Positions 1,180 to 61,560 of a stretch of DNA of 64,000 nucleotides are shown in pieces. Under the pieces are notes generated by a model that made no database searches, was not told the DNA's origin, and saw nothing but the letters and a program-made list of their open reading frames with translations. Source of the DNA: Agmasoma carcini (nom. nud.) (lineage: Eukaryota; Microsporidia; Thelohaniidae); NCBI GenBank assembly GCA_029232285.1, contig JAOXFI010000020.1, forward strand, positions 1-64,000, in the 5' to 3' direction. The position numbers were made by a program, and so were the translations under genes. Positions within the stretch are counted from its first letter, which is position 1. Each line of letters begins with the position of its first letter.

Positions 1180-1980
1180 AAGAATGTTACTTCAAAATCT
1201 CAAAAAAATATAAGCTGATCTGACCGGTGTATAGAACGCTAAATCTAGTTAAAACCCCATCCTGTGGTTAGTATCTTTAATAATAATGGTTTTAATTCAA
1301 TATGCTCGTTTGTGACCATAGATATAAAGTAGTATCAATTGGAAAGCTTTCCTCTTATTTTCTATGAAGAATCTTAAAATATCAGTTGGCCTAGAAAAAC
1401 CAAAACATTAAGTAAAAAATTAACAATAATAGATAAAATAGAAGTGGAAGGCACGTATAGCAGGGATAGTGATCATATACTTATCGTGCTATTAATATTT
1501 TAAGGATATCATGCTATATTTTAACTGGGCTTAGTGCTATTGCACACACCAACCAGCTTATATCTTCAAGAAATGATCCTTCCCTACCAATGAAGAAAAG
1601 GTGTATGTCTTCAACTGCAAACAAGTTTTCTAAAGTTAATATGGTTATTCGTCCCATGTTCTTATTTCAACTCTATATCATGTGTAGTTCTGGGCTCTTT
1701 AAAGAACGGCAGGTATCACTATATAAGATAATTTTATATGGATGACATTTCGCTTTTGTTATTATTTTGATTAAAACTCAATGAGTTTATGATTGTTATT
1801 GATTTGTTTCAATTTTTAGAGTTTTTACATGTTTTATTAATTATTCTCCTATTGTAAGTAAATTTTAATTAGCTTTGATCACCTCATAGGAAACATGAGA
1901 AAATGGTAAGGTATCATATCGCTATATTTCTGTATTAGTATATTGGACAAGATAAATACATTTATTATTACCGTTTATTC
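1180..1980 (+). mobile_element. Degenerate plus-strand copy of the 510-bp SINE-like family, probably interrupted
   Basis: About 1180-1275 resembles the middle of the family (AAGCTG..., ...CACTAAGCCCAGCT-like). About 1735-1980 resembles its 3' half, including GTTTTTAC, a decayed AAGTTTATTGATAACTAAAATTCC-like segment, and the end TATTGGACAA...TTATTATTA. The opposite-strand copy at 1276-1735 lies between the two halves, so this may be a nested insertion. Divergence is high. Confidence 0.35.
1276..1735 (-). mobile_element. SINE-like family, minus-strand copy
   Basis: Read on the plus strand it follows the minus-oriented copy at 60938-61440: TTTAATAATAA, ATATGCTCG, GTAGTATCAATTGGAAAG, then GGGCTTAGTGCTATTGCACA, CCAACCAGCTTATATCTTC and the TTCTGG...CTC end. 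It is more diverged than the 61-kb copy. No clear target-site duplication remains. Confidence 0.6.
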
Positions 1981-10797: not shown

Positions 10798-11904
10798 ACC
10801 CACCTTTTTCAAGTAATTTTGTTCTTCAAATATTATTGAAACTTATTTATAAAATAAGCTTTTATATACCTTAAATATATAATCGCAATTAAATGTCAGC
10901 AGAAAGACAATACAATTATGTCAAGAAGTGTGGAGAGATTTTATTGAGATAAGTGAAAGAAATAAACGAGAGTTTATTTTTAAAATAAAATACAACAAGG
11001 GTAGAGTTAAAAGAGGATCTTAGGTAGTATTGAAAGAAGACAAAGATTGCTTTGTTGAAGTGGTAGAGAACAGAAACAAATCAACTATGAAAATAATATT
11101 TTATTATAGTAACATATGAACGAAGAGCTTATGGGGTAGAATTTAATATATTAAACTACAATACAAACATAAGACCACTGATTTTCATATAAATTTGTTA
11201 ATCCTCATAATACAAGTATACAAATGTAATCTATTGAATGTCTTTGACCTCAGGCCAAATATAAGCTAGGAAAACAACTTAAAATTAAAAAACTGTTATA
11301 TTGTATTATGAATTGTTATTCCTATGACCAATAATCTCATACTATTACATCTTTTAATTTTAAAAACACCCTTGAAACAAACATGAACCCTAATGATTGT
11401 AGTACATCCATGTTTTTAGAAATATTTCTTATAGATTTATATCAAATTTGAATTTTTAATGTCTATTGATTAATACTTATAATGTATATGGTTTTATGTT
11501 TTAAAACAGAAGAAATCAATATTTACAAGTTTGATGAATATATATCTATATAAATTATACATATAAGCATTTATAGATGCTACAAATATAAAAACTAAAC
11601 AATATAAGCCTACCTTTGTAAATTACAAATTAGTTTGATTTCGTAAAAAAATTATTTCTATAATAATTTTACTAATATAATTACTCAATAAAATTGTATG
11701 AAAGCTCATATAAAACTAGTAATAATAGTGAATTCAGAACACTTCATACTTTAAAGAGTATCAAAAGTATTTAGTATTTATCTAATCGGGGAGAAAACCC
11801 AACTCGTATGTAAAGGCTTAGAAAATTTAAAATACATCACAGTAAGAACTAGATGGTAGTCATACTTTGGTAAAAACGGCAACAAAGCCAAATTACAGAT
11901 ATTT
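10798..11904. other. Gene-free stretch over 1 kb
   Basis: AT-rich DNA without a supported coding frame, RNA gene or repeat match. Confidence 0.5.
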
Positions 11905-12215
11905 TCCCTAGGACATTCTTAGATGATGGCGGTAAAATCTTAAAAATACTTAACATAGAATGTGGTTACAACTGGTTTTAGTGATTTACGTAAACTATAC
12001 TACCTTATTTCTCAATATCTCGAAGTATATCTTTACCAACAAAGAAGAAATGTCTATCTATCACCACACTTCATATTTCCAAGTTAGCAAGGTATCACGA
12101 AACCATCCGCCTGCTCAACCCTTAGCTGTTCCTAACCTGTTACAGCCCAAATAGCCGTTGTTTCTAACGTTACCACGTGGAGATATGGATTATTCCCAGA
12201 TCATCACAAATAAAT
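11905..12215 (-). mobile_element. SINE-like family, 5' half, minus-strand copy
   Basis: CTTAGATGATGG, TTAACATAGAATGTGGTTAC, AACTGGTTTTAGTG, TAGCCGTTGTTTCTAACGTT and ACCACGTGGAGATATGGATT parallel the 61200-61440 part of the well-preserved minus copy. The 3' half is missing or unrecognisable. The open frame at 11960-12154 falls inside it and is not a gene. Confidence 0.7.
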
Positions 12216-13423: not shown

Positions 13424-13916
13424 GCTCTACAAAGAGTCTAGACCTCGATTTGATAACATTCGAAACAACAGCTAATTAGACTATAACAGGTTAGGGTCTG
13501 CTAGGGGGTAAAGGAATATTGTGAGGATACAGATGATCTTTGTTTGGTCTGAGAAACTAGTTTGTAGTCAATAGGCATACACTTCGTGATATAGCAGGTA
13601 ACAACCTGGTTGGTGTGCGTAATAGCACTAAGACAAGCTAAAATATAGTATGGTGTCTTTAAAGTCTTACTGTCACCATCTATGATGGTATGAAATCTAA
13701 AAATTTTACCAAAGCACGATAATTGTATGGTCATTATCCCCCAGTTATTCGTTTTTTAAATTATTGTTGTTCGACTTGGTAGTTTTTACTTGAAAGGCTT
13801 TCCTTTTCTAGGCTGACTGATTCATTATAGAAATAAAACGGGAAGGTTTCCAATCGATACTACTTTATGTTTATACCCATTGATTAAGTAAGCATATTGA
13901 TAAAACTATTATTATT
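13424..13916 (+). mobile_element. SINE-like family, nearly full-length plus copy
   Basis: Starts GCTCTACAAAGAGTCTAGAC and ends in TATTATTATT. It contains the core GTAATAGCACTAAG, TGTCTTTAAAGTCTTACTG, CACCATCTATGATGGTATGA, ACCAAAGCACGA and GGTTTCCAATCGATACTACT. It is flanked by ACATTCATTCC (13412-13422) and ACATCCACTCC (13917-13927), matching at 9 of 11 positions, which looks like an aged target-site duplication. No coding frame. Confidence 0.8.
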
Positions 13917-15762: not shown

Positions 15763-15767
15763 TAAAC

Positions 15768-16247: not shown

Positions 16248-16504
16248 AATTGTGAAAAATAATTCAATTTTTTAATTTTTAAAACTTAATCAGTACAAAA
16301 ATATCGGTCAAATTGATCAAATCATAATAATAATTTTATTTATCAAATATGCTTGCCTAGGTAAAAAAACACAAAATATTATCGATTTGAAACCTTTCCA
16401 CATATTTTAATGTTATATACAAATATTTTGAGTATATGCCAACCTAGAAAAGTTGAACCAGAAGTAAAAATTATTAAAATCAAACATCAATAATTAAATG
16501 GGGT

Positions 16505-16870
16505 GTAGAAAAGGCGAAAAGTATAATTTGGGGCCATACATTTATTGTGCTATGATAAAATGCAGTAGAAAAACTTGTTTGTCATACCATCTTAGATGGT
16601 GACAACAGTAAGACTTTAAAGACAACAAACTATATTGTAGGTGGCTTAGTGCTATTACACACATCAACCAGTTTATATCTTGAAGAAGTGGCCCTTCCCT
16701 GCCAATAAAGATGATTTCTCTCTCTATCGACCAGAAACTAGTTTCTTGGAGTGAATAAGCCTATCTGTATCTCTAAGTCATAGTTTACCCTAGTATTGCC
16801 CTGTTATACTCCAATTAACCATTGCTTTCAATATTTTCACATGAAGGTCTAACTTTTAGCGGAGCTTACA
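16505..16870 (-). mobile_element. SINE-like family, 5' two-thirds, minus copy
   Basis: Contains CATACCATCTTAGATGGTGA, CAACAGTAAGACTTTAAAGA, TAGGTGGCTTAGTGCTATTA, ACACACATCAACCAGTTTAT, CCTGTTATACTCCAATTAAC and ACATGAAGGTCTAAC, matching the minus copy at 61 kb. The (TTA)n end is not present, so it is truncated. It lies 290 bp from the plus copy at 17164, tail to tail in orientation. Confidence 0.75.
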
Positions 16871-17163: not shown

Positions 17164-17680
17164 ACTCGCAGATCAGTCCAGACCTTCACGTGGTAATGTT
17201 GGAAACAATGGCTAATTGTGCTAAAACATGACCATGGAGGATACGGATAACTTTGTTCACTCTGTGGAACTGTTTTGCTGTCGATAAACAGACATTTCTT
17301 AAAGATATAAACTGGTTGATGTGTATAATAGCACTAAGCCACCTACAATATAGTTTGCTGTCTTTAAAGTCTTACTGTTGTCATCATCTAAGATGGTATG
17401 ACAATCAGGTTTTTCTACTGCCTTTTACCAAAGCACGAATAGTGCATAATCATTAATGTTTGTTCTATCCCTTTTACATTCCATTTTATTATTGTTTGAT
17501 TTAGGTGTTTTTACTTGCTGGCTCGGCTTTTCTCTTATGATAAGTTTATTGATAACTAAAATTCCTTGTAAAAAATGTGAATATTGGCGGAGAGGTTTCC
17601 AATCGATACTACTTTAATTCTTGTTTTTGCCTGGGCAAGCATATTGGACAAATAAACCTTTTATTATTATTATTATTATA
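17164..17680 (+). mobile_element. SINE-like family, full-length plus copy
   Basis: All segments of the family are present in order, from CAGTCCAGACCTTCACGTGG to GCCTGGGCAAGCATATTGGA, CAAATAAACC and a tail of seven TTA units. T-rich DNA on both sides prevents a sure target-site duplication. The open frames at 17253-17456 and 17577-17780 lie inside it and are not genes. Confidence 0.85.
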
Positions 17681-17800
17681 TTTTTTTTTAATTTTTAAAA
17701 AAAGAAAACAAGAAGTTGAACATTGTTGCAAGAAATTCCGTTATATTGTAAAATTTATGTTGTTGTTTTTTTTTAATTAAATGTTCAGTTGTTTTTATTT

Positions 17801-17813
17801 TGACTATATAAAT
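17801..17813 (+). promoter_or_regulatory. TTGACTATATAAA element before the 17833 gene
   Basis: An exact 13-bp match to the element at 22011-22023. In both cases the motif starts 32 bp before the ATG. It includes a TATA-like core. Confidence 0.6.
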
Positions 17814-17832
17814 GTTTAAAATACTATAAACA

Positions 17833-18288: not shown

Positions 18289-18370
18289 ATGATTTTCTGT
18301 AATTTTTGGGTTGACATATTTTGAAATATTAATATAAATAAAATATATAAATGATTAGAAAATAATAGGC

Positions 18371-22010: not shown

Positions 22011-22023
22011 TTGACTATATAAA
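22011..22023 (+). promoter_or_regulatory. TTGACTATATAAA element before the 22043 gene
   Basis: Identical to 17801-17813 and at the same distance (32 bp) from the ATG. Confidence 0.6.
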
Positions 22024-22042
22024 GAAACCTTTCTAAAAAAAT

Positions 22043-29457: not shown

Positions 29458-30349
29458 ATAAAAGTTTAAGATTTTGATTTTATAATAAAAGGATGTGTTT
29501 TTATGTAATATTAAAACAGATCAAAATGAAAAATTTTAATCATGTTAAAATCTTACATCAATAATAAAATTATATATAAATTAATATATAATTATAATAT
29601 AAAATGGATATAAAAAATTATATAATAAAATTATAATAAAAATATACATACATTATTACAATTATAAAAAAGACCAAATTTCAATAAATTAGCAAAGAAT
29701 TTCACTTTCATGTATAGATTTGTGAAGCAACAGGTTATTGAGCTAAAACATGTACATATGATACATATAACCCTATCTAACCTAATCTAACGATAGATAA
29801 ACACTTTTTATTGGTATAAAAGACCACTTCTTAAGATATAAGCAAGTCGGTATACGTAAAATATCAAATCTGTAAAAAATGTAACTTTATAGTTTTGGTA
29901 TCACCATCTAAGTATAAATAATAATGATCAATTATAATATAAATGGATTATCCTTTATGGGCAAGTTATCTCAATCTGTTATATTGTAATACATGAAATT
30001 ATAATCTTTAATCTAAAAACTTAAGATATCACATGATGGCTCATTGTTTAATAGAAATAGGCATTATCATTTGTAGATCTAGTTTTAAAGTATTGATTAT
30101 TCTACAAATTAAAATATTATTTCTTTTAAATCACTTACATTCTTATATGAACAAATTTTATATTTTATTGTTAATAATTTGAATTGTACTAAAAATGGTA
30201 AAACTTACTGCTATACAACGACCACACATTCATATATTAAAAATTGGCTTCCTTCTCTTATAAGTAAGATGTTTTTAATAATAAATATATTATTATATGA
30301 AAAAAATAATATTGTGTTTCTTCTATAGTTCTCATATTTGTGTTTCTTC
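29458..30349. other. Gene-free spacer after DRE2
   Basis: AT-rich, no gene recognised. TGTGTTTCTTCTATA is duplicated at 30313 and 30339, just before the pentanucleotide satellite. Confidence 0.5.
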
Positions 30350-36739: not shown

Positions 36740-38366
36740 AAATAAGAAAAATAAAATTATTTTTTAAAATTATTATTTTTATATGTGAGGGGAGGGTGGT
36801 TGAATTATAAGAAAAATAAATATTATTATTATATATATGAGAGGAGTAGCTAATTATAAAAATAAGAAAAGTAAATTCGTTAGTTTTTTATATGTAAGGG
36901 GTAGCTAAATTATATAAGATAACTATTTCATTTTTCAATTTTTTGTATTATGTAGAGGTATTAAATAAGCTGACTTAAAATTTATAAGAGATTAATATAT
37001 ATGTTGAAATATTTATCATGAATATAAACATTGTCCTTATCAAGACTATTTCTTAAATATTTATAGGATGTGATTTCTCTATCTAATTATAAACATTTTA
37101 TATCAATTTATAAATATCTGTCTATGAGAAGAAGCAATTCCGACCGAGACTATAAATACCATTAAATAAAAAATTTAACCCTAAATCATGTCGAGAATGA
37201 TTATAAGTGATAATAATGTATATTTATTGATATGAATGTAAGCAAATAATAAAATAAAAATTTATTTGTAATTGGATGTAAGCCCATTTAGCTATTGTCT
37301 TTATCAAAGTTACTTCTTAAATAATATAAAATTTTATCTTAATTTCAAATAATATTTTATGAATTATAATAAGGGTTTTCGATCTATTTGCAAATTTTTA
37401 CATCAACTGGTAAATATTATATATTAATTTAATATTAGTTAGTTAGTCTCTATTTACCTATTTTTATATCAAATAAAATATTAATATTTATACTTAGATA
37501 TGAATTATTTAAAATTAGATAGAGAAACTCTACATTATAATTTTAGTGAATGAATCATCATGAAGAGAAATAAAACATATAACTAAGGTCAAATATAATA
37601 AAATAAGTCATTTCTAAAGTATATTTACTTATTAATACTTGCAAGGTTATAACTAGATAGCATTTATTACACTGTATATCAATACTTAATAACTTAAATC
37701 TATTTTTTATTAAAGCTAAATTTTGATTATTTTTATAATTATTTGTTAAAATTTATAAATAAAAATATTAAAAATATTTTGTATGTTTGTATTTATTTAA
37801 AAAATAGGTAAATATTTTTAATCAAAAATTAACTTATTTTATTTGTTAGAAATTTATTTATTATAAATTAATATATTATTATTATTTTAATAATAATAAA
37901 CTTTAATAATATCATATTATCATAAAATCATACTATCATACTATCACACTATCATACTATCATACTATCACACTATCATACTATCACACTATCACCATAT
38001 CATACTATTATCATTATAATATAAATTTTTTTAAATTTTAAACTTTTTTTGATAAAATTTTGTTTTTAATTTTAATTTGTTTATATTAAAAAAAAATTAA
38101 CAAAAAATAAGGCAAAAATAATAACTTTTAATACTTTCTATTAATTTTTATACTAACATGATCATAACTCATCCTTTACCTCTACACCCCTCTCAATATA
38201 CCACTTCAACCATTTGTTTATTATTAATATTTAATTTTACATTAAAACAAACATCTTTCAAACTCATATTAATATTCATTCAACTATTTACCAATACTAT
38301 TATCCTGTCATCCATCCATTTCATAAATAAATTTTCTACTATAAAATTATCTACCCAACAATATTT
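36740..38366. other. Gene-free 1.6-kb region
   Basis: After the Sec7 stop two or three diverging repeats of ATAAGAAAAATAAA-type and TATATG-GAGGGG-type units occur (36740-36910). An 8-bp satellite lies at 37928-38009. The open frame at 38158-38370 has a composition typical of pyrimidine-rich non-coding DNA and is not believed. The part before 38367 is the promoter of the homeodomain gene. Confidence 0.5.
37928..38009. repeat. 8-bp satellite ATCATACT / ATCACACT
   Basis: About ten units, two variants alternating. Confidence 0.9.
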
Positions 38367-38789
38367 ATGATAGCTCCACACGTCTTAAACATTAGAAGAA
38401 GAAACATACAAGCCTTGCTAGGACTTATGAAAATGAGGTCTGTTAGCTGCGAATCTGAAAACAAATCCTACAGAGTTCAGAAGAACGACTTTCAAAAGAG
38501 CGTCCTTAAAGATGTCTTCAAAATTACTAGATTCCCTTCTAAGCAGACAAGAGAGGAACTAGCCTTACTTCTTAACCACACAAACAGAGGCATTCAGATT
38601 TGGTTTCAAAATCAAAGAAATAATAGAGGAGAGAAAGGTGACAAGGATGATGATAGGGACGAGAATGGTATTCCTAAGCGTAGGACTATAGACATACTTA
38701 TTATAATGGATATTATTGAGAGAAATATGTCAAATGAAAAACGAGAGAACTGGAGGAAAATTGTAAATTTTGATTCAAATTATTATTAA
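38367..38789 (+). CDS. Homeodomain transcription factor, 140 aa
   Basis: Homeodomain at residues about 34-92. Its pieces are YRVQKNDFQKSVLKDVFK (helix 1), ITRFPSKQTREELALLLN (loop and helix 2), and the recognition helix IQIWFQNQRNN with Trp79, Phe80, Asn82 and Arg84. The spacing RFPSKQTREEL matches KYPSKTTRSNL of the 28208 protein, so the two are paralogous. The C-terminal 48 residues start with an Asp/Lys-rich stretch and hold one helix. ATG supported by the CTACCCAACA upstream. Stand-alone gene between non-coding regions. Confidence 0.94.
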   Translation: MIAPHVLNIRRRNIQALLGLMKMRSVSCESENKSYRVQKNDFQKSVLKDVFKITRFPSKQTREELALLLNHTNRGIQIWFQNQRNNRGEKGDKDDDRDENGIPKRRTIDILIIMDIIERNMSNEKRENWRKIVNFDSNYY

Positions 38790-39792: not shown

Positions 39793-40313
39793 ACCCAGCC
39801 AAAAGTCTAGATCTTCACGTGGTAACAAAGACTAATTGGACTATAACAGATAGGGCTGGGGGTATAAGAATGACCTTGTTCATTCTGAGAAACAAGTTGT
39901 AATTGATAGATACCTCTTTAAGATATGATTGGTGTACGTAATATTACTAACCATTTATAATATAGTATATAAGACGAAATGAAAATCAAGTTTTTTCACT
40001 ATCTTTTTACTAACCATCTATAATATAGTATGTATCACTTTTAGTATATAAGACGAAATGAAAATCAAGTTTTTTTACTATCTTTTACCGAAGCACGAAT
40101 AGAACATTGTCATTATGCCCTGCTTTTCGTTTATTTTACACTCTATTTTATTATTTGCTGATTTGGCTTTTTAATTTGTAAATTTATATTCTTTGTAGAA
40201 AACGTGAATATTAGCGAAGAGGTTTACAATCGATACTAGTTTGTGCTTCCTTTACATAAAATTAACCTGAGCAATCATATTAGACAAACAAACCTTTTGT
40301 TATTATTTGGACT
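39793..40313 (+). mobile_element. SINE-like family, diverged plus copy with internal duplication
   Basis: Follows the family from GTCTAGATCTTCACGTGGTA to TTACAATCGATACTAGTTTG and the TTGTTATTATT tail. An about 80-bp internal segment (ACTAACCAT-TATAATATAGTATATAAGACGAAATGAAAATCAAGTTTTTT) is present twice, at about 39945 and 40010. No clear target-site duplication. Confidence 0.8.
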
Positions 40314-41420: not shown

Positions 41421-41944
41421 AATGTATTTCTAAGAAACTTAAAACGTGTTTTGGCTATTTATAGAGCTTAAAAATGCAATGTTAAGTTTAGGGTTTAACT
41501 TTTTTAAAAGACCTATTTTCAAAATATATTTATCACTCTTAAACTGAAGATATACATTTTTGAAAAGCTTTTATTTTACTTCACGATAAAGATATCATAT
41601 AAGTTAGTGAGAAAACACACTGGGCGGAGTAACTTCAACCATATAGTTTGTTTAGAAGATTTAGCTTTAAATTTGTTTCTATCATAATAGATGAAATAAG
41701 GTTCGAGAGGTATATAAAGTATAATAGAATCAATTGTTAAACAATATAAACCACTGAACGAGGTACATATTCGTACCTAAATTATGAACAATAGATACTA
41801 CTGTAACATAGTAGATAGACCTTGAATTTATAGAGGTTTGATTTTTATATGTTAAGGGTGAAATAAGAAAGCGGGTATAAATATGATTCATAGTGATGGA
41901 AGTGTTCAGTTTTATTTGCTGATGAACTACCCGCTTAATTAAAT
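41421..41944. other. Gene-free stretch
   Basis: No supported gene; an open frame on the minus strand (41730-41957) has no family features. Confidence 0.4.
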
Positions 41945-42689: not shown

Positions 42690-42960
42690 GTCATAAGATG
42701 TGATCATAGCTAAGCTTATACCTTCAAGATCACAATATGAAGATTGTTTTTCACTCGCTACAAACTAGTTCTAGAGTGAACAAAAAGCTGTAACACTTGA
42801 CAAGTCTTATAGTCCAATTGATTGGTGTTTTTCACTCGCTACAAACTAGTTCTAGAGTGAACAAAAAACTGTAACACCTTGACATGTCTTATAGTTCAAT
42901 TGATTGGTGTTTTTCAACGTTTACAATCTGCAACATATGAAAATCTGGATTCTTCGTAGG
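42690..42960 (-). mobile_element. SINE-like family fragment with 81-bp tandem duplication
   Basis: AGCTTATACCTTCAAGATCA, CGCTACAAACTAGTTCTAGA, GTGAACAAAAAGCTGTAACA and CTTATAGTCCAATTGATTGG resemble the 5' part of minus-oriented family copies. The segment from TTTTTCACTCGC to ATTGATTGGTG is repeated at 42745 and 42826, with a third partial start at 42908. Confidence 0.55.
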
Positions 42961-50745: not shown

Positions 50746-50833
50746 TTAAATATAATTAACTATTTTAATCACTTATATTATATTTTAGTACATAATTTAG
50801 CTAGGTTAATATATGGTAACAAGTAATACCTAA

Positions 50834-51345
50834 GCTCTGTGATTAATCCAGACCCCCACGTGGTGCAGAGTGGTAACGTTGGAAATAACGGCTAAAGCAT
50901 GACCGTGGGGGATACAATTAACTTTGTTCACTTTGGGAAACTGGTTTGCAGTCGATAGACAGACACCTCTTCTTAAATATTAAGCTGGTTGATGTTCGTA
51001 ATAGCACTAAGCCCAGCTACAACCGCATTCTATAGTTTGGTGTCTTTAAAGTCATACTGTCACCATCTAAGATGGCATGACAATAAAGTTTCTCTACTGC
51101 CTTTTACCAAAGCACGAATAGTGTATGGTCATTAATGTCTATTTTCGTCTCTTCTATATTTTATTATTTTGTTTGATTAAGGAGTTTAACTTGCTGGTTC
51201 GGATTTCTCCTATGGTAAATTTATTGATAACTAAAATTCCTTGTAAATATTAGCGGAGAAATTCCAATCAATACTACCTTAAGTCTTATTTCATACTTTT
51301 GCCTGAGCAAGCATATTGGGCAAATAAACCTTCTATTATTATACA
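50834..51345 (+). mobile_element. SINE-like family, reference full-length copy with 9-bp target-site duplication
   Basis: 512 bp from GCTCTGTGATTAATCCAGAC to CTATTATTATAC. Flanked by perfect AATACCTAA at 50825-50833 and 51346-51354. The 5' region has TGGTGCAGAGTGG (50861-50873), which resembles a Pol III A box, and about 80 bp on GGTTTGCAGTC, a weak B box. No coding frame. The tail is a TTA microsatellite. All this fits a tRNA-derived or other Pol III-type retroposon, but the promoter boxes are only suggestive. Confidence 0.85.
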
Positions 51346-51388
51346 AATACCTAATTTTATATTATAAAATAATTTTAACTGTTTTTAA

Positions 51389-52747
51389 TCATTCATTATA
51401 AAAAACCAAACAATATATTTCTGCCTCGCCTTTAAACTCAAATATTTTATCTTTTTTTCTTAGTTTAAAACAAATATTTTTATCATCGTCAGCTGCAATA
51501 TCAATTATCAACACAAATACATTAGGGGTTTTAACATCAGAAAGGTTTACACTTATACAATCTTTACTGGTTTTACTAAAAGAATTTTTAAGTTCTTTAT
51601 AGGATTGTAACTTATTACCTTTCTTTTTAAATAAAAATATTCTCAATTGACTTTTATCAATGTTTTCTCTTAATAAGTAAAAAATATTCCCTTTCATTTT
51701 TAAGTGTTTTACTTTTATACCAAGACTTGTTAATTTTTGATATGTAAATTTATTAATATACAAAGAGGGTCCTGAAATTCCTTTTTCGCTATTATATTTT
51801 GTTACTTGGCAGTTTTTACTTGAATCATTATCAATTTTATTCGTATTCAGAACTCGCAAATTATAATTTAGTTTTTTATGATAATATTTTTTAATATTTT
51901 TTGATTTTTTTGGAGCAATTTTTACAAATTCTTTGGGTTTTATCTTTTTAACCTTGTTTTTATCATCAGGAGGTGTTGAAGATGATGATATTGAAGACTT
52001 TTCTTTATTTAATTCAGTTAAGTCAAAAGTACTACTATTGTTTATATGAGTGGAAGATGGGTTTGGTTGAGGTTGTTGATAAGAAGGTTTAATTATATCA
52101 AAAATTTCAAGGTTTTGATTTATAGGAATAAGTTGTGTTGTATTGTTAGATGGATTTGAAATGATTTGTTGATCATAAGCTGGTGATTGAACTATTTGAC
52201 TATTAGAAGGATTAACATACTGATATGAAATTATATCTTGGGTAATAATTGGTGGTTGGATTGCTTGAACATTAGAAGGATTAATATACTGATATGGATT
52301 TATATCTTGGGTAATAATTGGTGGTTGGATTGCTTGAACATTAGAAGGATTAATATACTGATATGAATTTATATCTTGGGTAATAATTGGTGATTGGATT
52401 AATTGAACATTAGAAGGATTAATATACTGATATGAATTTATATCTTGAGTAATAATTGGTGATCGGATTATTTGATTATCAGCTTGTTGTAAGGTAGTAT
52501 CAAAATTTGTATTTTGTGAAATAATAGGAATAAAATAGGATGGATGTGAGTTAATATATTGTGTTGGTGTATTTGGTATATTCAAGTAAGCATTTAAGTT
52601 TTGTATTGCTATGTTGCGTGGTTGATTTGGAAGAACATTATAAATATATCCTGAATTGTTGGATGGGTTTGGAATATTTACAAAAGATACATTTTCAGAA
52701 GTGTTGTAGGCTGTTGCACTAATTAATATTACAAAGAGTATAATCAT
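51389..52747 (-). CDS. Secreted Asn/Pro/Ser-rich repeat protein with conserved C-terminal domain, 452 aa
   Basis: Signal peptide MIILFVILISATAY, then an Asn/Pro/Ser/Gln-rich disordered region. This includes about four tandem 23-residue units of the type PIITQDI-NSYQY-[IV]-NPSN-VQ (residues about 90-190, 69-bp DNA period near 52160-52490). A Ser/Thr and Lys-rich linker (KKIKPKEFVKIAPKKSKN) leads to a globular C-terminal part of about 150 residues. That part shares YxLRENI, LRIFLFKKKGN, NLSDV and FVLIIDI with the 55804 and 59007 proteins. No membrane helix, so secreted. A spore-wall or host-directed protein is inference. It lies 35 bp from the SINE-like copy's duplication. Confidence 0.85.
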   Translation of the reverse strand: MIILFVILISATAYNTSENVSFVNIPNPSNNSGYIYNVLPNQPRNIAIQNLNAYLNIPNTPTQYINSHPSYFIPIISQNTNFDTTLQQADNQIIRSPIITQDINSYQYINPSNVQLIQSPIITQDINSYQYINPSNVQAIQPPIITQDINPYQYINPSNVQAIQPPIITQDIISYQYVNPSNSQIVQSPAYDQQIISNPSNNTTQLIPINQNLEIFDIIKPSYQQPQPNPSSTHINNSSTFDLTELNKEKSSISSSSTPPDDKNKVKKIKPKEFVKIAPKKSKNIKKYYHKKLNYNLRVLNTNKIDNDSSKNCQVTKYNSEKGISGPSLYINKFTYQKLTSLGIKVKHLKMKGNIFYLLRENIDKSQLRIFLFKKKGNKLQSYKELKNSFSKTSKDCISVNLSDVKTPNVFVLIIDIAADDDKNICFKLRKKDKIFEFKGEAEIYCLVFYNE

Positions 52748-53209
52748 CTTGCGGTATATTTTTATTTTTTATATTTAAAACAAAAATTTTAATTTTAGTT
52801 GACAGATCTGCAATTATTCAATCATTTGAAATCTATTTAAATATAATACTATTATTAGTTCACTATTTTATAAAAGATATTATCTATTAAATAATTTAGA
52901 CATTTTTGAATATTCAAAATTGTGACGGAATCCAATTAATAAAAATATCAACTAAATAATGATTTTAATAAATTCAAATGTCTATTATATTCAAAATATT
53001 GCTGTCATGTTATTATAAGTAATTTACTAAAATTTTTTATAGTATAGCGATTTACCTAGACAACAAAAATTTCGCTGTACAGCACACTAAATTACTAGTA
53101 CACACGCCCCATTTGATAATTTCTATCCTTATTAAAATTCGTAACCTTTATATAATTTATTTAAAGATTTGTTGATAAATTATCCATTATTTTTGTATTT
53201 CAAACAATA
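52748..53209. other. AT-rich upstream region of the 51389 gene
   Basis: No gene or recognised repeat; composition changes abruptly to GC-richer DNA near 53200. Confidence 0.5.
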
Positions 53210-53740
53210 AACAGCAAGCTTTCACTGAGAGGCCCACATGTCCTGAAACAAACTTTTTACCCATCGTATGGCCCGTAACCAAGACAACTACATGTTCACC
53301 GTACGCATCGAAAGCTCAGACCCCAAATGCTCATTCAATAAACAGTTTCCTTACAATCATATTAATAGTATCTACATATACTGCCTGGAGCTTAACAAAC
53401 TTCTTCCTGCCCACGCCAAGTCACCCTATTAATAGGAATAATTATTTTCCCTCAATAGTACACAAGTTAAAATTATACTGTCATAAGACACCTTTATGAC
53501 AATGGACTAACCGCCTTATCAGACGGCATTAAGATCCTACTCGATCATTTCGGGAATATTATAAAAAGTTTTGCAGAAATTTACTTATCGCATGACAGAA
53601 GAGCAATGCAAAAAGACGGCGCCACAAGGCAAATCTAAGATCAATAAATCATTAAGTACAATTCCATTTACACCCAACGACTCAAGGGACAACCCATTCG
53701 AGCGATTCACGACAATACCATCTAAAACATAGCCTTTACC
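53210..53740 (+). pseudogene. GC-rich decayed coding stretch, unidentified
   Basis: GC is near 45% here against about 20% around it. Two frames read as protein: from 53269 MARNQDNYMFTVRIESSD, PKCSFNKQFPYNHINS, IYIYCLELNKLLPAHAKSP. After a frameshift, from about 53480, IRHLYDNGLTALSDGIKILL, DHFGNIIKSFAEIYLSHDRR, AMQKDGATRQI. The text ends near 53720 with PFTPNDSRDNPFERF. A related, more eroded copy is at 41945-42130. A gag-like or other mobile-element protein, or a transferred gene, are possible; not recognised. Confidence 0.5.
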
Positions 53741-54079
53741 ACCGACCTACAACAATTAAATAAATTCAACAATATAAATACGAATATCAGCAAGTATTGT
53801 GGTTTATTGATCCAAATATGTTTTTTGATTGTATTTTTATTGACCATTATTGTTGCCAAACAACATAAAAGTTTTGAAAAGGGTCTATTATAGGGCCTGA
53901 GAAAATATTTTAGTCAAAATAATATTATCAAATATTAAATCTAGAATAACAATAAAAGAATACAATTCATGTTGATAAAAAGTTAGCATTTTATTTAGCT
54001 ACCTTCATAAATTTCAAAAATCTTTTACCTTGAACACTCTCCTAAACTTAAAATCATCAAGGTAAAAACTTAACCGCTA
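53741..54079. other. Gene-free stretch
   Basis: AT-rich DNA between the GC-rich relic and a transposon relic; nothing recognised. Confidence 0.45.
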
Positions 54080-54720
54080 TCTTGAACAAAAAGAATATTT
54101 CCTTAATATTTTCTTAAGGAGCATCCAAAGATTCTCAATGGTTTGAGTATGAGCTCCTGTGTTAGGATCAACAAGAAAATCATTGTGTTCAAGCATAAAA
54201 ATTTTTGCAGAAATGAGGCTCATCTTTTCCAAAAATAAGACATGGGTGGGCAATTATACGAAATTACTACTGATGCTTCTGATATGACATCTTTAATCAA
54301 TCAGCCCAATGTTCTTTTCGAACGACTATCAACACATTAAATAAAAATATCATAAGATTGTCTACCGATTACACCAAAAATCTACTGCAGTTTATGCATT
54401 CGTCCTTTACCATACTTTGAATTCCATGTGATGTATTATCAATTCTAACAATGCGACCAGTACCTCCTAGTTTTGAAAAAGATGCATCATTTTAAAATTC
54501 AATTAGGTTCTTTAAAACCCCATGTCACATTATTACATTCAAGTTTGAGATCTCTAAATCCTTGTCAGTTCTAGAAACCTGTTGATCTTTAGCAAATATA
54601 ACGACTATCTTAAACATGTTAAAAATTTAGAGCTCATAACTCGAGAATACCGCGCCATTTCTTATTGAAATTTTAGTATCACATCTGCTACACCCGTGAA
54701 CTCAAAAAACCCCAAAGTTC
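54080..54720 (-). mobile_element. Decayed Merlin-like transposase, copy 6
   Basis: The reverse strand shows KISIRNGAVFSSYEL then IFNMFKIVVIFAKDQQVS near 54690-54580. Next are GGTGRIVRIDNTSHGIQ near 54460 (first Asp block) and HNDFLVDPNTGAHTQTIENLW near 54185-54125. Order and motifs match Merlin/IS1595 transposases. No intact frame. Confidence 0.75.
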
Positions 54721-55054
54721 GTCCTAATTGTATTATACCCTTATTAACTTTTGACCTTTTAGAGAGATTTATAAATTAACAGTTTCAAAAACTTATTGTT
54801 TTAAGCATTATATAAAAAACCTCAACATTGATATTTTAGAAAAAGCCTTAAAAACGAATTAAAAAGATAAAACATCATGATTTTAATTTTAACATTATAA
54901 AGAGCTTAATTTATTATAAAATTTCTAGAAAAAATAATATTATATTTTTGGGGTTTCGGTGAAATTTATAAAGCTTATAATCCATTGATTTTTTCATTAA
55001 TATTTATTTGGTTTTTATATTAAATTTGTGAAAGTGTATAAAATCGGTATAATT
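54721..55054. other. Gene-free spacer
   Basis: AT-rich, nothing recognised. Confidence 0.45.
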
Positions 55055-55213
55055 ATGAAAATCCAATCGAAATTCACCAGTTTTCTTAAAATTATAAAAT
55101 CACTTAAAAACTCAAAGTATTCCGAACAACCAACATTTTTTGAAGAGAATATAGTTTTTATAAAAAACACAGAAACCTACGATTTAAACTATGAAAAATT
55201 ACTCCATTTTTAA
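55055..55213 (+). CDS. Very small hypothetical protein, 52 aa (doubtful)
   Basis: From the ATG at 55055 the frame gives a basic 52-residue product: MKIQSKFTSFLKIIKSLKNS, KYSEQPTFFEENIVFIKN, TETYDLNYEKLLHF. The composition is less AT-driven than the surroundings and would suit an amphipathic N-terminal helix followed by an acidic part. No C-run or AAATTT motif was seen directly before the ATG, and no family is recognised. Could be a small real gene or chance. Confidence 0.3.
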   Translation: MKIQSKFTSFLKIIKSLKNSKYSEQPTFFEENIVFIKNTETYDLNYEKLLHF

Positions 55214-55803
55214 TCTAAACATTCTTTAAAACCTTTAAATAATATATAAATTATATTTTTTATTATTCTTTTCAATATTATTATCATGTATAATGTTTCT
55301 GGGCATAATTCAAAATATTTTTTTTATTTAATGGTATTTATAGTCTCGGTTGGAACTGTTTCTTCTCGTAGACCAAGATCAATATTTCTGACACAAAATT
55401 TATTGATATTTTAAGTTTAACATATGATAATTTTATTAATTTATATTCCCTCTGTCCCTATAACAAACCCTTACCAATATATAAAAATATGCTTCATTCG
55501 TCTTTTATATGATTTATGATCTATAAACATGGTTATTATAAAATTTATATTTAACGTATTATTGTAGACACTACTCATAACAAGTCTTCAAAATAATTAT
55601 ATTTACTTAATCTTATAACTATTACCGACTATAAAATATTGTAAATCTTTTTACCATCTTCAATGAACCACCAATCAAATTAATCTCTATTTTATATCAA
55701 CTTGGTAAGTTGATACCTATCTCCAACAATATATTAAAATATGACTTCTCAAATAATTAGTATAATTTTATCATAAAATTATTTAGATACTGATAAAAAT
55801 AAT
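55214..55803. other. Gene-free spacer
   Basis: AT-rich, nothing recognised. Confidence 0.45.
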
Positions 55804-57240
55804 TTAATAAAGTGCAATATTTAATAAAAACCCATATCCATACAAATATTGTGTATCTTTCCCTTGATAATAAAATTTGTTAGTATAATTTTTACCATCA
55901 GAAATTATAATCAAAAGATAACATACTTTATCAAATTTCTCAAGGTTCAATAATACTTCATCATTATTTACCCTTATTAATATATGTTCCAATATTTTAA
56001 CCATTTTGTAATTGTTTCTCTTCTTCTCATACGAAATAACATAAATTTGTTCATTAATTATGTTTTTTCTTATTATTTTTATTACTTTGTTAAAAACTTT
56101 TAAAATATCATTTTTGATTCTCAAATATTTTATAGTATTCCCTGAAAATTCGTTAATTAACACAAAAGATTTCAAATTTAAAGGTAAATCGCATTTAGTT
56201 TTCTTCATCATTGAATAATGCAACATAGAAAAATTTTCTTCAGATTTTCCATACAATTTCTCAGAAATAAAAATAATTTCATCACTAAAATTTTTATCAT
56301 TCTCAAATAGATCTGAACTAGTTGTTTTATGAATATTCTTTGATGATGACACACTATCACCTGTAGATAGTTCTAATTCCTGTATTTGAGATGGACTGAG
56401 TGTTTCATAATTTAAGTCTGCATTAGGATTACTTAGATCAGGAATTTCATTAGAAGGACTATAGCTTTTATCCTCTGTAAATAATCTGTTATTTACAGGG
56501 GATAACAAGTTGATATTTATTAAAGTTAAACATATTGGATTTGGCACTTTAGAAGTATTGACTACGTTCAAATTTTCGAAGGTTGGCTTTAGTGTGCTAT
56601 TCTGATTCAAATTATCGGAAATATGCATCCCACCCATGTGCTGGTTGCATTGAGTGTAACTATTCCCACTACTGTATAAGTTCATGCTATCCTTACATAC
56701 ATTTTCTTTTTCCTCTAAACCATTAAGTATATATTCATTAGTGGTGGGTGGCGGGTTTTGAACTATCTGGTTTGATAAACAGGACAATATCAAAGGATTA
56801 GAGTATGTTAGGTCGCTGATATTAGAATCATCGTCAGATACAAAAGGCTCTGTGGTTGCCAGTTCTTTTGGTGTTTCTGATATTTTTTTAGCATCTATCA
56901 TGTTGTCTGTTAAGATAGAATCATACATCCCAATAGTAGGACAGATAGAATCCGTTCCTTTTGGTGTTTCTGATATGTCTTCAGCATCTATCATGTTGTC
57001 TGTTAAGATAGAATCATACATCCCAATAGTAGGACAGATAGAATCCAGTTCTATTTCACCTTCATCGTTTGCATACACACCAAACTCTTGTTCTACATCA
57101 TATTTTATCTCCTTAAAACTTTCAGTTTCAGTTTTATCTTCTAATGATCTTTTTAGTCCTGATTTAGAATAATTATTTGAATTATTTAAATTCTCAAGAC
57201 CAAATATTAAATTTGTAAGTAGAAAAATTTTATGAAGCAT
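55804..57240 (-). CDS. Secreted repeat protein with conserved C-terminal domain, 478 aa
   Basis: The ATG at 57240 is preferred because it opens a signal peptide (MLHKIFLLTNLIFGLENLNN). The frame is open 24 codons further upstream to another ATG at 57312. The middle is long, acidic and Asn/Ser-rich, with two near-identical 31-residue units (DSICPTIGMYDSILTDNMID, then an A-x-x-ISETPK end; 93-bp DNA period, 56865-57050). The last 110 residues form the shared domain, with IRKNIINEQIYVISYEKK, RNNYKMVKILEH, NNDEVLLNLEKF and KVCYLLIIISDGK. It is closest to the 59007 protein, which also has an ELESIIPTFGDLHD element like the repeat unit. No membrane helix. Function unknown. Confidence 0.82.
   Translation of the reverse strand: MLHKIFLLTNLIFGLENLNNSNNYSKSGLKRSLEDKTETESFKEIKYDVEQEFGVYANDEGEIELDSICPTIGMYDSILTDNMIDAEDISETPKGTDSICPTIGMYDSILTDNMIDAKKISETPKELATTEPFVSDDDSNISDLTYSNPLILSCLSNQIVQNPPPTTNEYILNGLEEKENVCKDSMNLYSSGNSYTQCNQHMGGMHISDNLNQNSTLKPTFENLNVVNTSKVPNPICLTLININLLSPVNNRLFTEDKSYSPSNEIPDLSNPNADLNYETLSPSQIQELELSTGDSVSSSKNIHKTTSSDLFENDKNFSDEIIFISEKLYGKSEENFSMLHYSMMKKTKCDLPLNLKSFVLINEFSGNTIKYLRIKNDILKVFNKVIKIIRKNIINEQIYVISYEKKRNNYKMVKILEHILIRVNNDEVLLNLEKFDKVCYLLIIISDGKNYTNKFYYQGKDTQYLYGYGFLLNIALY
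56865..57050. repeat. 93-bp coding tandem duplication in the 55804 gene
   Basis: Two 93-bp units, nearly identical over about 85 bp, inside the reading frame. The near identity indicates a recent duplication. Confidence 0.9.
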
Positions 57241-58159
57241 GGTTTGACAAAAAAAAGTATATAAATAGTATTTTTTGATGTATTTATTGGTCACAAAGAA
57301 GGAAACCGACATATAATTGAATTATATGGTATTTAGCTGATCTTTTCTATTATTACTAAGTATCTTAAGATCGATATGACCTACTTATAGTCTTAAAAAT
57401 TAATTAATTATTTTTTGTGGTGGTATTTTATACTAAGCTTGTTATAAAACAATATATGAGCCATACCAAGATTTAAAATGTGAAGCATTAGTAAATATTT
57501 TATTAATTTAACATATAATTAAAATCAAAACTAACAATAATAACATTTCATTATTACACCATTTCAATTTTTTTTATTAATTGAATATATTTTTAAAAAA
57601 TCAAAATTAACAATAATAACATTTCATTATTACACCATTTCAATATTTTTATTAACTTGTGTTGACGTTTCGTATTGAATGGTTAAATTAAAAAAATAAT
57701 TTTATTAAATAATTAATTAATTTTTATTTTATGATAATTCAAAATAATACAAATAAAGTAATCTGATACTTATTGATGTATAATTATAAATTCTTAATAT
57801 TGTATAAGACATTAAATTCATTTACAGATACTCTGAATTTTATAATTTTTTCATGATTTATCAGTTTTCTTCTGACTAATAATAAATTATTTATTGTTAA
57901 GATACATGCCAAAAATTCGAATCATTCGTGTTCATCACCTTCAATTAACATTTAATGATTTATTAAAAGATCGATTCCGCCTTAAGCCACAAAGATTGTG
58001 ATAACACATTATTAACTCATGTTATTATAGAATAATTCATGGGTTTCCTATTTCACACTCAAATAGATCTCTTATATGCAATTGTGAAATCTTTATTTGT
58101 ATATTTAGAGCTTGTTATAATATACCCTTACCGATTTTCTAATTTACACCATGAAGAGG
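57241..58159. other. Gene-free stretch with a 76-bp tandem duplication
   Basis: At 57521-57655 the segment ATCAAAACTAACAATAATAA, CATTTCATTATTACACCATT, TCAAT occurs twice with 76-bp period. No gene. Confidence 0.65.
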
Positions 58160-58510
58160 GTTCTGCGATAAGTCTAAACACAAAAACATAGAGTGGAAAT
58201 AAGCTGATTGAGCTATAACAGGTCAGAGACTAAAGAAGGGCTATGGGGATGCGGATAATACTGTTTACTTTATCAAACCAGACTGAAAACAAGATAAATA
58301 TTTCATCTTATTGATAAAGAAGGACACAACAGGTTTGAAGATATAAGCTGGCTGGTGTAAGTAGAGTATTAAATCTAATCAATAGATGTTTTAAAGTTTC
58401 GTAGTCGTTTTTTATCCACTATCTGATTATTCTCTATTGATTTGTTCAATTTTATAAGTAAATATTAATTAGTTTTGATCACTATCGTATGTTTATTTTT
58501 CATTTGTAAT
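58160..58510 (+). mobile_element. SINE-like family, strongly diverged plus copy
   Basis: GATTGAGCTATAACAGGTCA, GGGGATGCGGATAATACTGT, GAAGATATAAGCTGGCTGGT, and near 58450 TTTATAAGTAAATATTAATT then AGTTTTGATC resemble the family, the last segment sharing a variant form with the copies at 1.8 kb and 61.5 kb. End points unclear. Confidence 0.5.
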
Positions 58511-59006
58511 TATATTGGAACAATAAAATTATATATTTTTATGTTGTGAGGAGGTTTGGGTTATTTTAAGAACAAAAACTATATTCATTATTTATTTAAG
58601 CTGATCACACTTAATTTTACCATTATTTGTTTTATTGATATTTGACATTGTTGCTTAAAACCATGTCTTTATTTTCGTAATATATATTCTATAATTTATT
58701 GAAATACTTTCCAAGATTTTTTAACACAGTGATCTGGTTGTAAACGATTACTGAAGTGATGCCAACTTTTTAGGAATAGGCTATATTGTAATTTGTTACT
58801 ATTCGATGTTAAAACTTAATATATTATTAAACCTATACCTTTATCTATCACAACATTTTTTTTATTTTTACAGAGCTAGAAAAAAAAGATTTATTTAACT
58901 TACATGAGACTACAGGCTTAATAACGTAATGAGTTACTAAACCAACAATCCAGAGGTGCTTCATATAGACCATACGTTCGCGGTGCCAAGGTTAATATTC
59001 ACACAA
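58511..59006. other. Gene-free stretch
   Basis: AT-rich, nothing recognised. Confidence 0.45.
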
Positions 59007-60284
59007 TTAGAATTCTATCATAAATCCTCTGCCTTTAAATTCCTTAGATAATTTTCTTGAGTAAAAACAATGTTCTATTTCTAAGCCTGAAATTATAATT
59101 AGAATATTGGAATTCCTCGTAACATCTTGAAGGCTTAATAAAAGCTCATCATCATTTATAATTGCCATTTTACAATCTAAAATATTAACTAATCGATAAT
59201 TTTGTCGTTCTCTTTTAAATAATATTACATTAATTTGATTTTCATGAATATTCTTTTTTCTTATAATAATTCTTTTGTTTTTAATAACTAAATAAAATAC
59301 TGAAATATCAAAGAATGATAGTTTTTGACTAAAAAACATATCAATTTTGAATCCTTTAAAACTTTTACTAGTCAATGAAGTTCTATTGAATTGTTTTACC
59401 AAAATATTTTCATCTGGTTTGATCAGATAATATGCAATGCTTGTATTTAAACCCGATTTTGATTTTAAAAGCGTTTGTTCAAAATTACCCGTGTAAAAAA
59501 TGATATATTTTTCAAAATCAATATTATTTATCAAAACTGGTGTCTTATCGTGTTCATTTAAGTTATTTGTATTCATATTATATTTTAACTGTGAATTCAC
59601 AAAAGAATTTGAGTATGGTACACTCTGATATTGACGAATTTTTTTTTTTTGAAATTTATAACTTTGATCATAATTTTCAGTAATAGAATCATCTGAAATT
59701 GGTAAATAACATTTTAGATCATTAATACTGTTTATATGCTGTAATTGAATGATGTCATTGTATTTATTATCAATTTCTTGTATTTCTTGAATTTCAGAAT
59801 TATTAATCAAAATTAAACTATTTGTAATACAAGAAAATGGGTTTAAAGAAGAACTTTCTGTATTTACATCATCATGTGTGTTTTTATAAAGGCATTCTCC
59901 ATTTTTTCTGGTAATTGAATCATTTGGAACAGGATTTTGATATGTTCTGTCTTTAGTAGGAAAATAATAGATTTCTTCATTATGAATATTTGTACAATCA
60001 TTGGGAGGTTTGTAGGAATTAAGATGATGTGAATCTTGTTTTTCTATAGAATTGTCATGAAGATCCCCAAAAGTTGGTATAATTGACTCTAATTCGACGT
60101 TGGTTTTGTTATACACAATAATATCATCAAATGTGCATTCTTTTTCTGATTCAACTGATGTGAATGAAGAATATATAGCTTGGTCGTGTTCACATACATT
60201 TTCTAATGCGGTCTCATCATTTATAATATAATTCAAGGTACGATCATCATAACTTAAACACAAAACCAAATATTTAAAAAACAT
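59007..60284 (-). CDS. Secreted protein with conserved C-terminal domain, 425 aa
   Basis: Signal peptide MFFKYLVLCLS, then an Asn/Asp/Ser/His-rich region with two PNDS/ISDDSIT-like motifs and isolated cysteines. From about residue 260 a more ordered part begins: KYIIFYTGNFEQTLLKSKSG. The C-terminal 110 residues carry IRKKNIHENQINVILFKRER, QNYRLVNILDCK, NDDELLLSLQDV and NILIIISGLE, colinear with the 55804 protein. Both genes lie on the minus strand, as does 51389, with about 1.7 and 3 kb between them, so this is a dispersed tandem family. No known domain; secreted by prediction. Confidence 0.85.
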   Translation of the reverse strand: MFFKYLVLCLSYDDRTLNYIINDETALENVCEHDQAIYSSFTSVESEKECTFDDIIVYNKTNVELESIIPTFGDLHDNSIEKQDSHHLNSYKPPNDCTNIHNEEIYYFPTKDRTYQNPVPNDSITRKNGECLYKNTHDDVNTESSSLNPFSCITNSLILINNSEIQEIQEIDNKYNDIIQLQHINSINDLKCYLPISDDSITENYDQSYKFQKKKIRQYQSVPYSNSFVNSQLKYNMNTNNLNEHDKTPVLINNIDFEKYIIFYTGNFEQTLLKSKSGLNTSIAYYLIKPDENILVKQFNRTSLTSKSFKGFKIDMFFSQKLSFFDISVFYLVIKNKRIIIRKKNIHENQINVILFKRERQNYRLVNILDCKMAIINDDELLLSLQDVTRNSNILIIISGLEIEHCFYSRKLSKEFKGRGFMIEF

Positions 60285-60659: not shown

Positions 60660-61560
60660 TCTCTGAAAAGAATCTTGATCTTCACATGATGCAGATTGAA
60701 AACGTCAAATATAACTTATAATTGAATTATGAAAGGTTTGATTTGTTAAAAGCTAAAGGAATAACATTATTCACTCTAACTAATTATATTATACACCCTT
60801 TCTTAAAGGTATAAGCTAGTTGATGTACGTATAACATTAAGTTAATCTGTTATCGCATTCTATGTAAAATGGTTTAAGAGGTATGACAGTCTACCTTTGC
60901 TTCCATTTTTATTAAAGTCACTTTAAGTGTTTGATTATTTAATAATAAAAGGTTTATTTGTCCAATATGCTTGCCCAGACAAAAGTATGAAATAAGACTT
61001 AAAGTAGTATTGATTGGAAACCTCTCCGCTAATATTCACAAAGAATCTTAATTTTCAATAAACTTATCATAGGAGAAAAACCGAGCCAGCAAGTTAAACC
61101 CCCTAAATCAAACAAAATAATAAAATATAGAAGAGACGAAAAAGAAATTAATGATCATACACTATTCGTGCTTTGGTAAAAGGCAGTAAGAAACTTGATT
61201 GTCATGCCATCTTAGATGGTGACAACAGTAAGGCTTTAAAGAAACTAAACTATAGAATGCGGTTGTAGCTGGGCTTAGTGCTATTACGAACATCAACCAG
61301 CTTATATATTTAAGAAAAGGTGTCTGTCTATCGACTACAAACCAGTTTCCCCCAAGGCCTTGATCTTTTATAGCCTAATTAGCCGTTATTTCCAACGTTA
61401 TCACACTGCACCACGTGGAGGTCTGGATTAATCACAGAGCTAAGTGTATGATTACTAACTAACCATTTTCTTTGAATCTAACTGCTGATGTGTTACATTT
61501 TTGACTGTATTTCTTCTTTTATAAGTAAATAATAGTTAGTTTTGATCTTCATATAAGATA
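60660..61560 (+). mobile_element. SINE-like family, old plus copy split by a younger copy
   Basis: The 5' two-thirds lie at about 60660-60937 (ATCTTCACATGATGCAGATT, GGTATAAGCTAGTTGATGTA, TTATCGCATTCTATGT). The 3' part resumes after the inserted copy at about 61441-61560, with GTTACATTTTTGACTG and TTTATAAGTAAATAATAGTT, AGTTTTGATC. The break falls exactly at the 14-bp duplication flanking the 60938-61440 element, so that element inserted into this older one. Confidence 0.6.
60938..61440 (-). mobile_element. SINE-like family, full-length minus copy with 14-bp target-site duplication
   Basis: 503 bp, closely similar to the reverse complement of 50834-51345 from TTTAATAATAAAAGG to GTCTGGATTAATCACAGAGC. 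Flanked by TAAGTGTTTGATTA (60924-60937) and TAAGTGTATGATTA (61441-61454), 13 of 14 identical. The A-box-like TGGTGCAGTGTGA is retained on the reverse strand. Confidence 0.85.

Follow-up and report, generated by a model that had tools for sequence, protein, structure and literature searches.

The window, by which we mean the whole 64,000-nucleotide stretch of Agmasoma carcini DNA that was analysed, carries near position 50.8 kb a short non-coding repeat bounded by a 9-bp duplication, and a profile search detected 12 elements or fragments of this retroposon in the window on both strands (Table 1). The nhmmer profile was built from 33 of 40 aligned loci, the other seven being set aside, and a second profile was built for a subfamily here named B. 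An earlier note on this DNA, made from its letters alone, had listed about a dozen copies; the list was reproduced, except that its entries at 1.3 and 1.2/1.8 kb were taken as one copy, and a fragment at 29.7 kb was added to it. The fixed 5' end and (TTA)n-type tail that it described are both visible in copy alignments, and its impression that the repeat lacks coding capacity also holds, in that no ATG-started ORF of at least 100 aa overlaps any of the 12 window elements.

Table 1. Copies of the element in the window and features of the copy at 50.8 kb
Feature	Position	Strand	Basis or remark
Diverged copy	1284..1705	-	
Copy without recognisable 3' end	11801..12200	-	
Full-length copy	13424..13915	+	Weak target-site duplication
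Full-length copy	16324..16864	-	
Full-length copy	17165..17667	+	Labelled as without P1 3' strand
Fragment	29727..29915	+	32.8 bits
Diverged copy	39794..40303	+	Two profile matches joined
5' fragment	42824..42960	-	
Subfamily A copy, about 512 bp including tail	50834..51345	+	blastn and nhmmer; profile match 50834-51339
5' fragment	58162..58363	+	
5' fragment	60661..60863	+	
Nearly full-length copy	60942..61440	-	blastn, nhmmer; 87% identity to 50.8-kb copy
5' target-site duplication AATACCTAA	50825..50833	+	Sequence; rank p 0.011 vs mismatched flanks (slack 1)
Putative HDV-like ribozyme, damaged	50834..50902	+	RF02682 match and helix count
Predicted P1	50834-50840 paired with 50865-50871	+	
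Predicted P3	50852-50854 paired with 50862-50864	+	
Predicted P4	50877-50890	+	
Predicted J4/2 GCUAA	50891-50895	+	Presumed catalytic C at 50892
3' hairpin ACCAAAG-CACGAATAGTG-TATGGT	51106..51129	+	Pattern searches; also in LINE 3' UTRs
A/T-rich (TTA)n-type 3' tail	51330..51345	+	Sequence, alignment
3' target-site duplication AATACCTAA	51346..51354	+	Sequence

Distribution, subfamilies and insertion of the element

Genomic copies were collected from the assembly (4.26 Mb, 69 contigs), as the earlier note had proposed, and at least 56 matches were obtained from the 40 of 149 candidates that were scored. Because DNA searches covered no more than 40 candidates apiece, genome-wide copy numbers are lower bounds. 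Within 309,776 bases examined, which were mostly picked as copy-bearing, 109 distinct elements or fragments were found on 44 contigs, 80 of them at least 400 bp long and 75 extending to the 5' end. Considering that an arbitrary 50-kb sample of the genome (five 10-kb stretches) gave one fragment, the window appears to be a dense spot for the element. Eight copies (L047, L065, L066, L068, L069, L073, L076 and, found later, L111), all detected via the 5' end, constitute subfamily B, which has the 5' head and body in common with subfamily A and differs from it in the last ~100 nt and in the loop of the P4 helix described below, which in B is mostly UAUAAAAG. The first seven B copies are 84.6-92.0% identical in pairwise comparisons, and a branch with an SH-aLRT support of 100% separates them from the rest of the tree.

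Duplications at the insertion sites were assessed by scoring how similar each copy's two flanks are when anchored at element nucleotide 1 and comparing this with all mismatched pairs of 5' and 3' flanks. The test covered 48 copies with both ends; hits lacking an end were left out (hence no subfamily B), as were L010, L011 and L015, which repeat window copies, L005, and hits with a short flank. Without slack, a score of at least 8 was reached by 24 of the 48 copies vs 2.9 expected and a score of at least 12 by ten vs 0.09 expected, and the real mean score was reached by none of 5000 permutations. Singly, 20 of the 48 duplications have p<=0.05 and the other 28 are unconvincing. A cruder first scoring gave a weaker separation (17 of 48 at a score of at least 12, with 3.3 expected). 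In subfamily B, six of eight copies scored higher than any of the 54 control flanks; the duplications at L073 (18 bp), L068 and L069 (15 bp each) are perfect, and no duplication was found at L047 or L111 (48 control flanks for the latter). As for the duplications that had been reported from the window, the perfect 9-bp one is present on both flanks of the 50.8-kb copy and the 14-bp one with a single mismatch at the 61-kb copy (TAATCATACACTTA/TAATCAAACACTTA) was confirmed, whereas that of the 13.4-kb copy is weak (score 8 in the cruder and 9 in the anchored scoring). Thus, duplications of variable length adjoin nucleotide 1 well above mismatched-flank controls, and target-primed insertion is well supported by these flanks.

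Several other features lie close to copies of the element. Predicted secreted or membrane proteins that resemble one another by eye follow in rows near retroposon copies at 14308-22480 and 51389-60284 of the window, which also contains ORFs (25521-26063, 28208-28561 and 38367-38789) that we take, from their motifs, to be forkhead- and homeobox-like. Elsewhere, at a distance of about 200 bp from a copy of the element, a match to the C/D snoRNA SNORD31 was observed at L014:39-102 (C20:82482-82545; 33.7 bits, cut-off 40, E 3.5e-4).

The HDV-like fold at the 5' end

HDV-like ribozymes are recognised by a P1 of 7 bp, P2, a P3 of 3 bp, P1.1, P4, and a J4/2 strand bearing the catalytic C in G-C-N-A-A. 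At curated Rfam cut-offs, the whole window gave zero matches. In a search of 801 bases, RF02682 (HDV-F-prausnitzii) matched the start of the 50.8-kb copy with 35.3 bits (E 9.7e-5), and this match begins at the first base past the 5' duplication, which is element nucleotide 1. When 18 other copy-bearing loci were scanned, the same model matched six of them, always from element nucleotide 1 onwards (25.1-34.3 bits, E 0.0047-0.61), and no HDV match at E<=1 was found in the other 12 by the Rfam scan. RF02682 is the best Rfam match and resembles the element in its 7-bp P1, 3-bp P3, UCNACGU-type L3, P4, and J4/2 GCUAA; however, it is a bacterial family whose P2 sequence differs, and the scores of the element (25.1-35.3 bits) all remain below the gathering score of 44.

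Helix counts revealed different degrees of damage. The 50.8-kb copy keeps P1, P3, P1.1, P4, and J4/2, with 0/7 pairs in P2, the 3' strand of which is missing; the copy at 60942-61440 keeps the P2 3' strand and has 6/7 pairs in P1, 5/7 in P2, and 1/2 in P1.1. In the majority row of 16 copies all helices are complete (P1 7/7, P2 7/7, P3 3/3, P1.1 2/2, P4 5/5), together with a GAAA P4 loop, the L3 sequence UCCACGU, and J4/2 GCUAA, and two single copies, L019 and L073, have all of P1, P2, P1.1, P3, and P4 intact. The majority row and the copies L019 and L073 show the full HDV-like feature set, which is incomplete in the 50.8-kb copy and in most others. Five of the eight B copies entered this count (L066, L047, and L111 were left out), and the F. 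prausnitzii consensus, counted likewise, keeps its own P1, P3, and P4 and has a P2 of 5 bp.

A ribozyme descriptor that allows at most one P1 mismatch, composed after the family had been seen, found seven matches on both strands of 313,683 bases (partly duplicate stretches, with identical matches counted once). Six of them start at element nucleotide 1, including both matches without a P1 mismatch; the seventh (in L088) is A/T-rich and lies away from element starts. In a Markov control, 148.7 Mb of a single strand yielded 835 matches with at most one mismatch and 70 without any, corresponding to ~3.5 and ~0.3 matches expected at any position in the scanned bases. Descriptor matches at element starts were found in two of seven B copies vs four of 63 other 5'-reaching matches, small numbers which suggest that the less diverged B set keeps the fold more often. 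Covariation of the ribozyme pairs among 16 subfamily-A copies did not rise above shuffles and so lends the fold no support, although decay of copies after insertion would be expected to give this outcome; comparison of the A majority row with the intact B copy L073 revealed compatible changes and a different P4 loop. Judging from these alignments and matches, element nucleotide 1 appears to be nucleotide 1 of an HDV-like ribozyme fold. In trypanosomatids, a 46-nt downstream sequence is described as able to inhibit an HDV-like ribozyme of this sort (PMC4035085); in some A copies, a downstream stretch could pair with P3/L3 (CCTCCACG with CGTGGAGG, CCCCCACG with CGTGGGGG).

One type of damage is recurrent. 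Among the 48 copies that could be scored for it and placed on the tree (eight of 56 rows were unscorable and left out), 15 were labelled as having lost the 3' strand of P1. The junction of the loss is a 10-nt deletion between GTGGT repeats, which eight of the 15 fit with at most three errors and seven with four or five, so that some of these labels are uncertain. A single origin of the loss was not supported, since the tree requires 12 changes, close to the shuffled mean of 13.0 (168 of 500 shuffles were as low). The starred branches require at least four changes of P1-strand state, and L012, which has lost the strand, is sister to L013, which has kept it, with 98% support. One explanation is that reverse transcriptase jumped across the folded ribozyme; alternatively, the DNA may have slipped or copies may have exchanged sequence.

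LINE relatives and the 3' end

An RVT_1 search returned nine matches, namely four on contig C48, two that are Ty3/gypsy-like, one on C26, and two weaker ones on C59, which bears another copy of the element, and C38. At E<=0.001, 467 relatives were found for the 333-aa reverse transcriptase ORF on C48; the best 120 are mostly unnamed, and the named ones include Smittium and the microsporidia Pancytospora philotis and Nucleospora cyclopteri. No endonuclease domain of the LINE was detected by Pfam in the ORF pieces scanned, nor any ribozyme by Rfam or the descriptor on the C48 LINE stretches, which are broken and may be 5'-truncated. Several broken LINE copies in a single orientation occupy C48:25000-42071 (L050, L051, L054), and the end of the contig matches microsporidian SSU rRNA (55.3 bits, cut-off 50), as if a LINE array adjoined the rDNA. 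The Ty3/gypsy-like pol reading frames are located at contig ends (C21:1-2186 and C37:58013-59758). The match on C26 (45856-49404, L005) is a 797-aa reverse transcriptase-like ORF with an element fragment nearby and no match among PDB sequences; it may be a telomerase, which is a guess of ours.

The last part of the full B profile (622 positions) resembles C48 in two places, both in the orientation of the LINE ORFs: positions 513-614 align with C48:41814-41707 at E 6.3e-6 and positions 513-615 with C48:38265-38158 at E 7.9e-4. Against reversed sequences the full profile gave nothing at E<=10. A profile of the B 3' end only gave weaker matches to C48 (E 0.011 and 0.6), and the composition correction of the full-profile match is 14.8 bits vs a score of 24.7. 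Over CTGCCTCTTTTGTTTANTGTGTGTTTTT, the aligned bases agree at 27 of 28 positions. Both matches lie in a repeat (C48:38149-38309 vs 41697-41858, 92.6% identity), which we read as a LINE 3' UTR because it lies directly 3' of the ORF piece 38318-38662. In a single comparison (E 4e-4), this piece aligned at 29% over 48 positions with the zinc-knuckle terminus of the protein of a C48 LINE that we call LINE-X, and its zf-RVT match (E 0.059) lies below the threshold. Behind the second place of the repeat, a LINE body is not seen. The subfamily-B terminus thus shows a moderately supported resemblance to a segment that may be a LINE 3' UTR.

For subfamily A, blastn of the 50.8-kb copy against C48:26001-42071 found nothing below E 0.18, and a search with the A 3' end gave at least 36 matches from 35 scored candidates, among which, after partial inspection for a neighbouring LINE, no LINE with an A-type terminus was recognised. 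Copy L012 of subfamily A was also compared with the LINE-X 3' UTR on C48, and the likeness was rejected as not significant (23 vs a shuffle mean of 20.9). Upstream of the terminus, however, a hairpin with the pattern ACCAAAG-N7..15-TATGGT occurs in subfamily A and in the B copy L047, its first bases varying in the other aligned B copies. It is also present in the LINE-X 3' UTR (C48:32461), downstream of the LINE-X ORFs, in related LINE 3' UTR pieces (C48:39331 and 41111; C64:5077), and in the B-like C48 segment (C48:41827). The pattern has 36 matches genome-wide vs one for the backwards pattern, and in Markov control sequence it appeared 13 times per 40 Mb, which corresponds to ~2.8 expected matches over both genome strands. 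Among 12 distinct hairpin forms, six form every one of the four inner base pairs (GCAC/GTGT twice, GCGC/GCGT twice, GTGC/GCAT, and GCAT/ATGT), with two-sided changes at three of the four, and six are broken (five element copies and that on C64). Among 27 distinct interiors, the stem has at least 3 bp in 19 and at least 4 bp in 13 (17% and 7% when shuffled); these are not independent tests because many are related subfamily-A copies. A further family of LINE-like 3' segments with an ACCAAAG...TATGGT hairpin was observed in L098, L100, L102, and L109 (on C13, C14, C18, and C47), several copies of which have a similar GTGTG..GCACCAA.ATTTA block after the hairpin. The earlier note had suggested looking for a LINE with a matching 3' end: a candidate segment was found by profile for the B terminus, whereas A has the hairpin in common with LINEs but not the terminus. 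The ribozyme, subfamily B, and this hairpin had not figured in that note.

Interpretation and relation to known retroposons

We consider it highly probable that the family is a non-autonomous non-LTR retroposon, in which a 5' HDV-like ribozyme (~70-75 nt) is followed by a non-coding body of ~400 nt and a LINE-like 3' module that consists of the hairpin, a terminal segment, and the A/T-rich tail, and that it propagates by the following cycle. The element would be transcribed by read-through from neighbouring genes, and the ribozyme would cut the RNA before nucleotide 1, freeing the 5' end. A LINE reverse transcriptase may then bind the 3' hairpin and terminus, and the RNA would be copied at the target nick by target priming. 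Because read-through at each new site would restart the cycle, an internal promoter would be unnecessary. In a more specific and tentative version, which we hold to be somewhat less likely than not, retroposition would be promoterless, one ribozyme and body module would have been combined with different LINE-type 3' ends, reverse transcriptase would grip the hairpin that several LINE and short families have in common, and the P1-strand loss would be a footprint of its jumps.

Other readings were weighed against this one. The repeat is short, multi-copy, and non-coding and Ty3/gypsy-like reading frames occur in the genome, as might be expected of a MITE, a solo LTR, or an internal piece of a longer element, yet such an identity is hardly conceivable considering that length-variable duplications flank both defined ends and that the aligned ends, inspected by eye, show neither a terminal inverted repeat nor TG..CA. 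A classical SINE with a tRNA-like or other type-2 Pol III promoter, the ribozyme likeness being incidental, is also very improbable. Its copies would be short, non-coding, and target-primed with a LINE-like 3' end, as observed here, and the earlier note had seen in an A-box-like string near the 5' end a hint of Pol III transcription. However, this string (TGGTGCAGAGTGG, 50861-50873, + strand) is made up of the P3 3' strand, the P1 3' strand, and P1.1 of the putative ribozyme, and it is labelled missing in 15 of 48 scorable copies. The tRNA/5S comparison which that note had proposed gave no tRNA, 5S, or 7SL match in looser Rfam scans or at curated cut-offs, a tRNA search of eight copy-bearing loci found none, and an origin from these RNAs was dismissed. 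Under a definition of SINEs that requires a Pol III promoter (PMC3414825), the element would by definition not be a classical SINE. From the SINE-like interpretation of the earlier note there remain a dispersed, non-coding, target-primed retroposon with an A/T tail and, for subfamily B, a LINE-like 3' end, but not the Pol III promoter.

It is improbable, too, that the ribozyme is a relic whose fold was inherited and whose cleavage is irrelevant to mobility. The many structurally broken copies, among them those labelled as without the P1 3' strand, and the flat covariation would agree with a relic, whereas the more frequent retention of the fold in the less diverged B set (in small numbers) and the scattering of the broken state on the tree, instead of its restriction to one successful lineage, argue against it. 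An origin of the whole element, including its body, as an internally deleted LINE that supplied both the ribozyme and the 3' end has precedents in the R2 SIDEs (PMC3414825) and NARTc/RIME (PMC4035085), which are described in this way, and is in line with the LINE-like 3' hairpin. We regard it as rather unlikely, as body and ribozyme match none of the LINE stretches examined and subfamilies A and B have head and body in common but different termini.

The preferred reading, a ribozyme-headed non-autonomous retroposon, has its closest counterparts among elements of other eukaryotes. Drosophila R2/R1 hybrid SIDEs are reported to combine an R2 ribozyme with the 3' ends of R1 and are thought to be mobilised by the latter LINE without Pol III transcription (PMC3414825). 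Like them, the present element would combine a 5' HDV-like ribozyme with the 3' end of another LINE; however, the SIDEs reside in rDNA and their ribozyme is traceable to R2 according to that report, whereas the element is dispersed, has a ~400-nt body between the two modules, and no ribozyme-bearing LINE was found. R2 ribozymes are reported to cleave at the 5' junction or upstream of it, and the R4, L1, and RTE clades are also cited as having ribozymes (PMC3774820). In trypanosomatids, L1Tc/NARTc and SIDER elements are described as carrying ribozymes, and NARTc/RIME/SIDER resemble the element in being short, non-autonomous, abundant, and dispersed, with an HDV-like ribozyme start and many degenerate copies; they have a 77-nt head in common with L1Tc/ingi LINEs that is also a promoter (PMC4035085), while no LINE with the head of the present element was found here, the comparison being one of descriptions and not of sequences. 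Compared with tRNA-type SINEs, the element is likewise short, non-coding, and target-primed with a LINE-like 3' end, but it would carry a ribozyme instead of a Pol III head. Non-LTR families of microsporidia have been reported in a study whose main text does not contain the words SINE or ribozyme (PMC4202319), and a table for Nosema bombycis contains 0.18% 'SINE' (PMC3614468). No report of a ribozyme-headed retroposon in microsporidia was found among the literature matches listed, in which subscription journals are thinly covered.

Microsporidian genomes serve as models of reduction. If the proposed cycle is true, it would explain how a LINE parasite that lacks its own promoter could spread where genes are densely packed, via read-through and self-trimming, and would extend HDV-like ribozymes to retroposons of the microsporidian lineage. 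It would also imply that LINE tails have been exchanged under a constant ribozyme head, the RNA of which would be directly testable.
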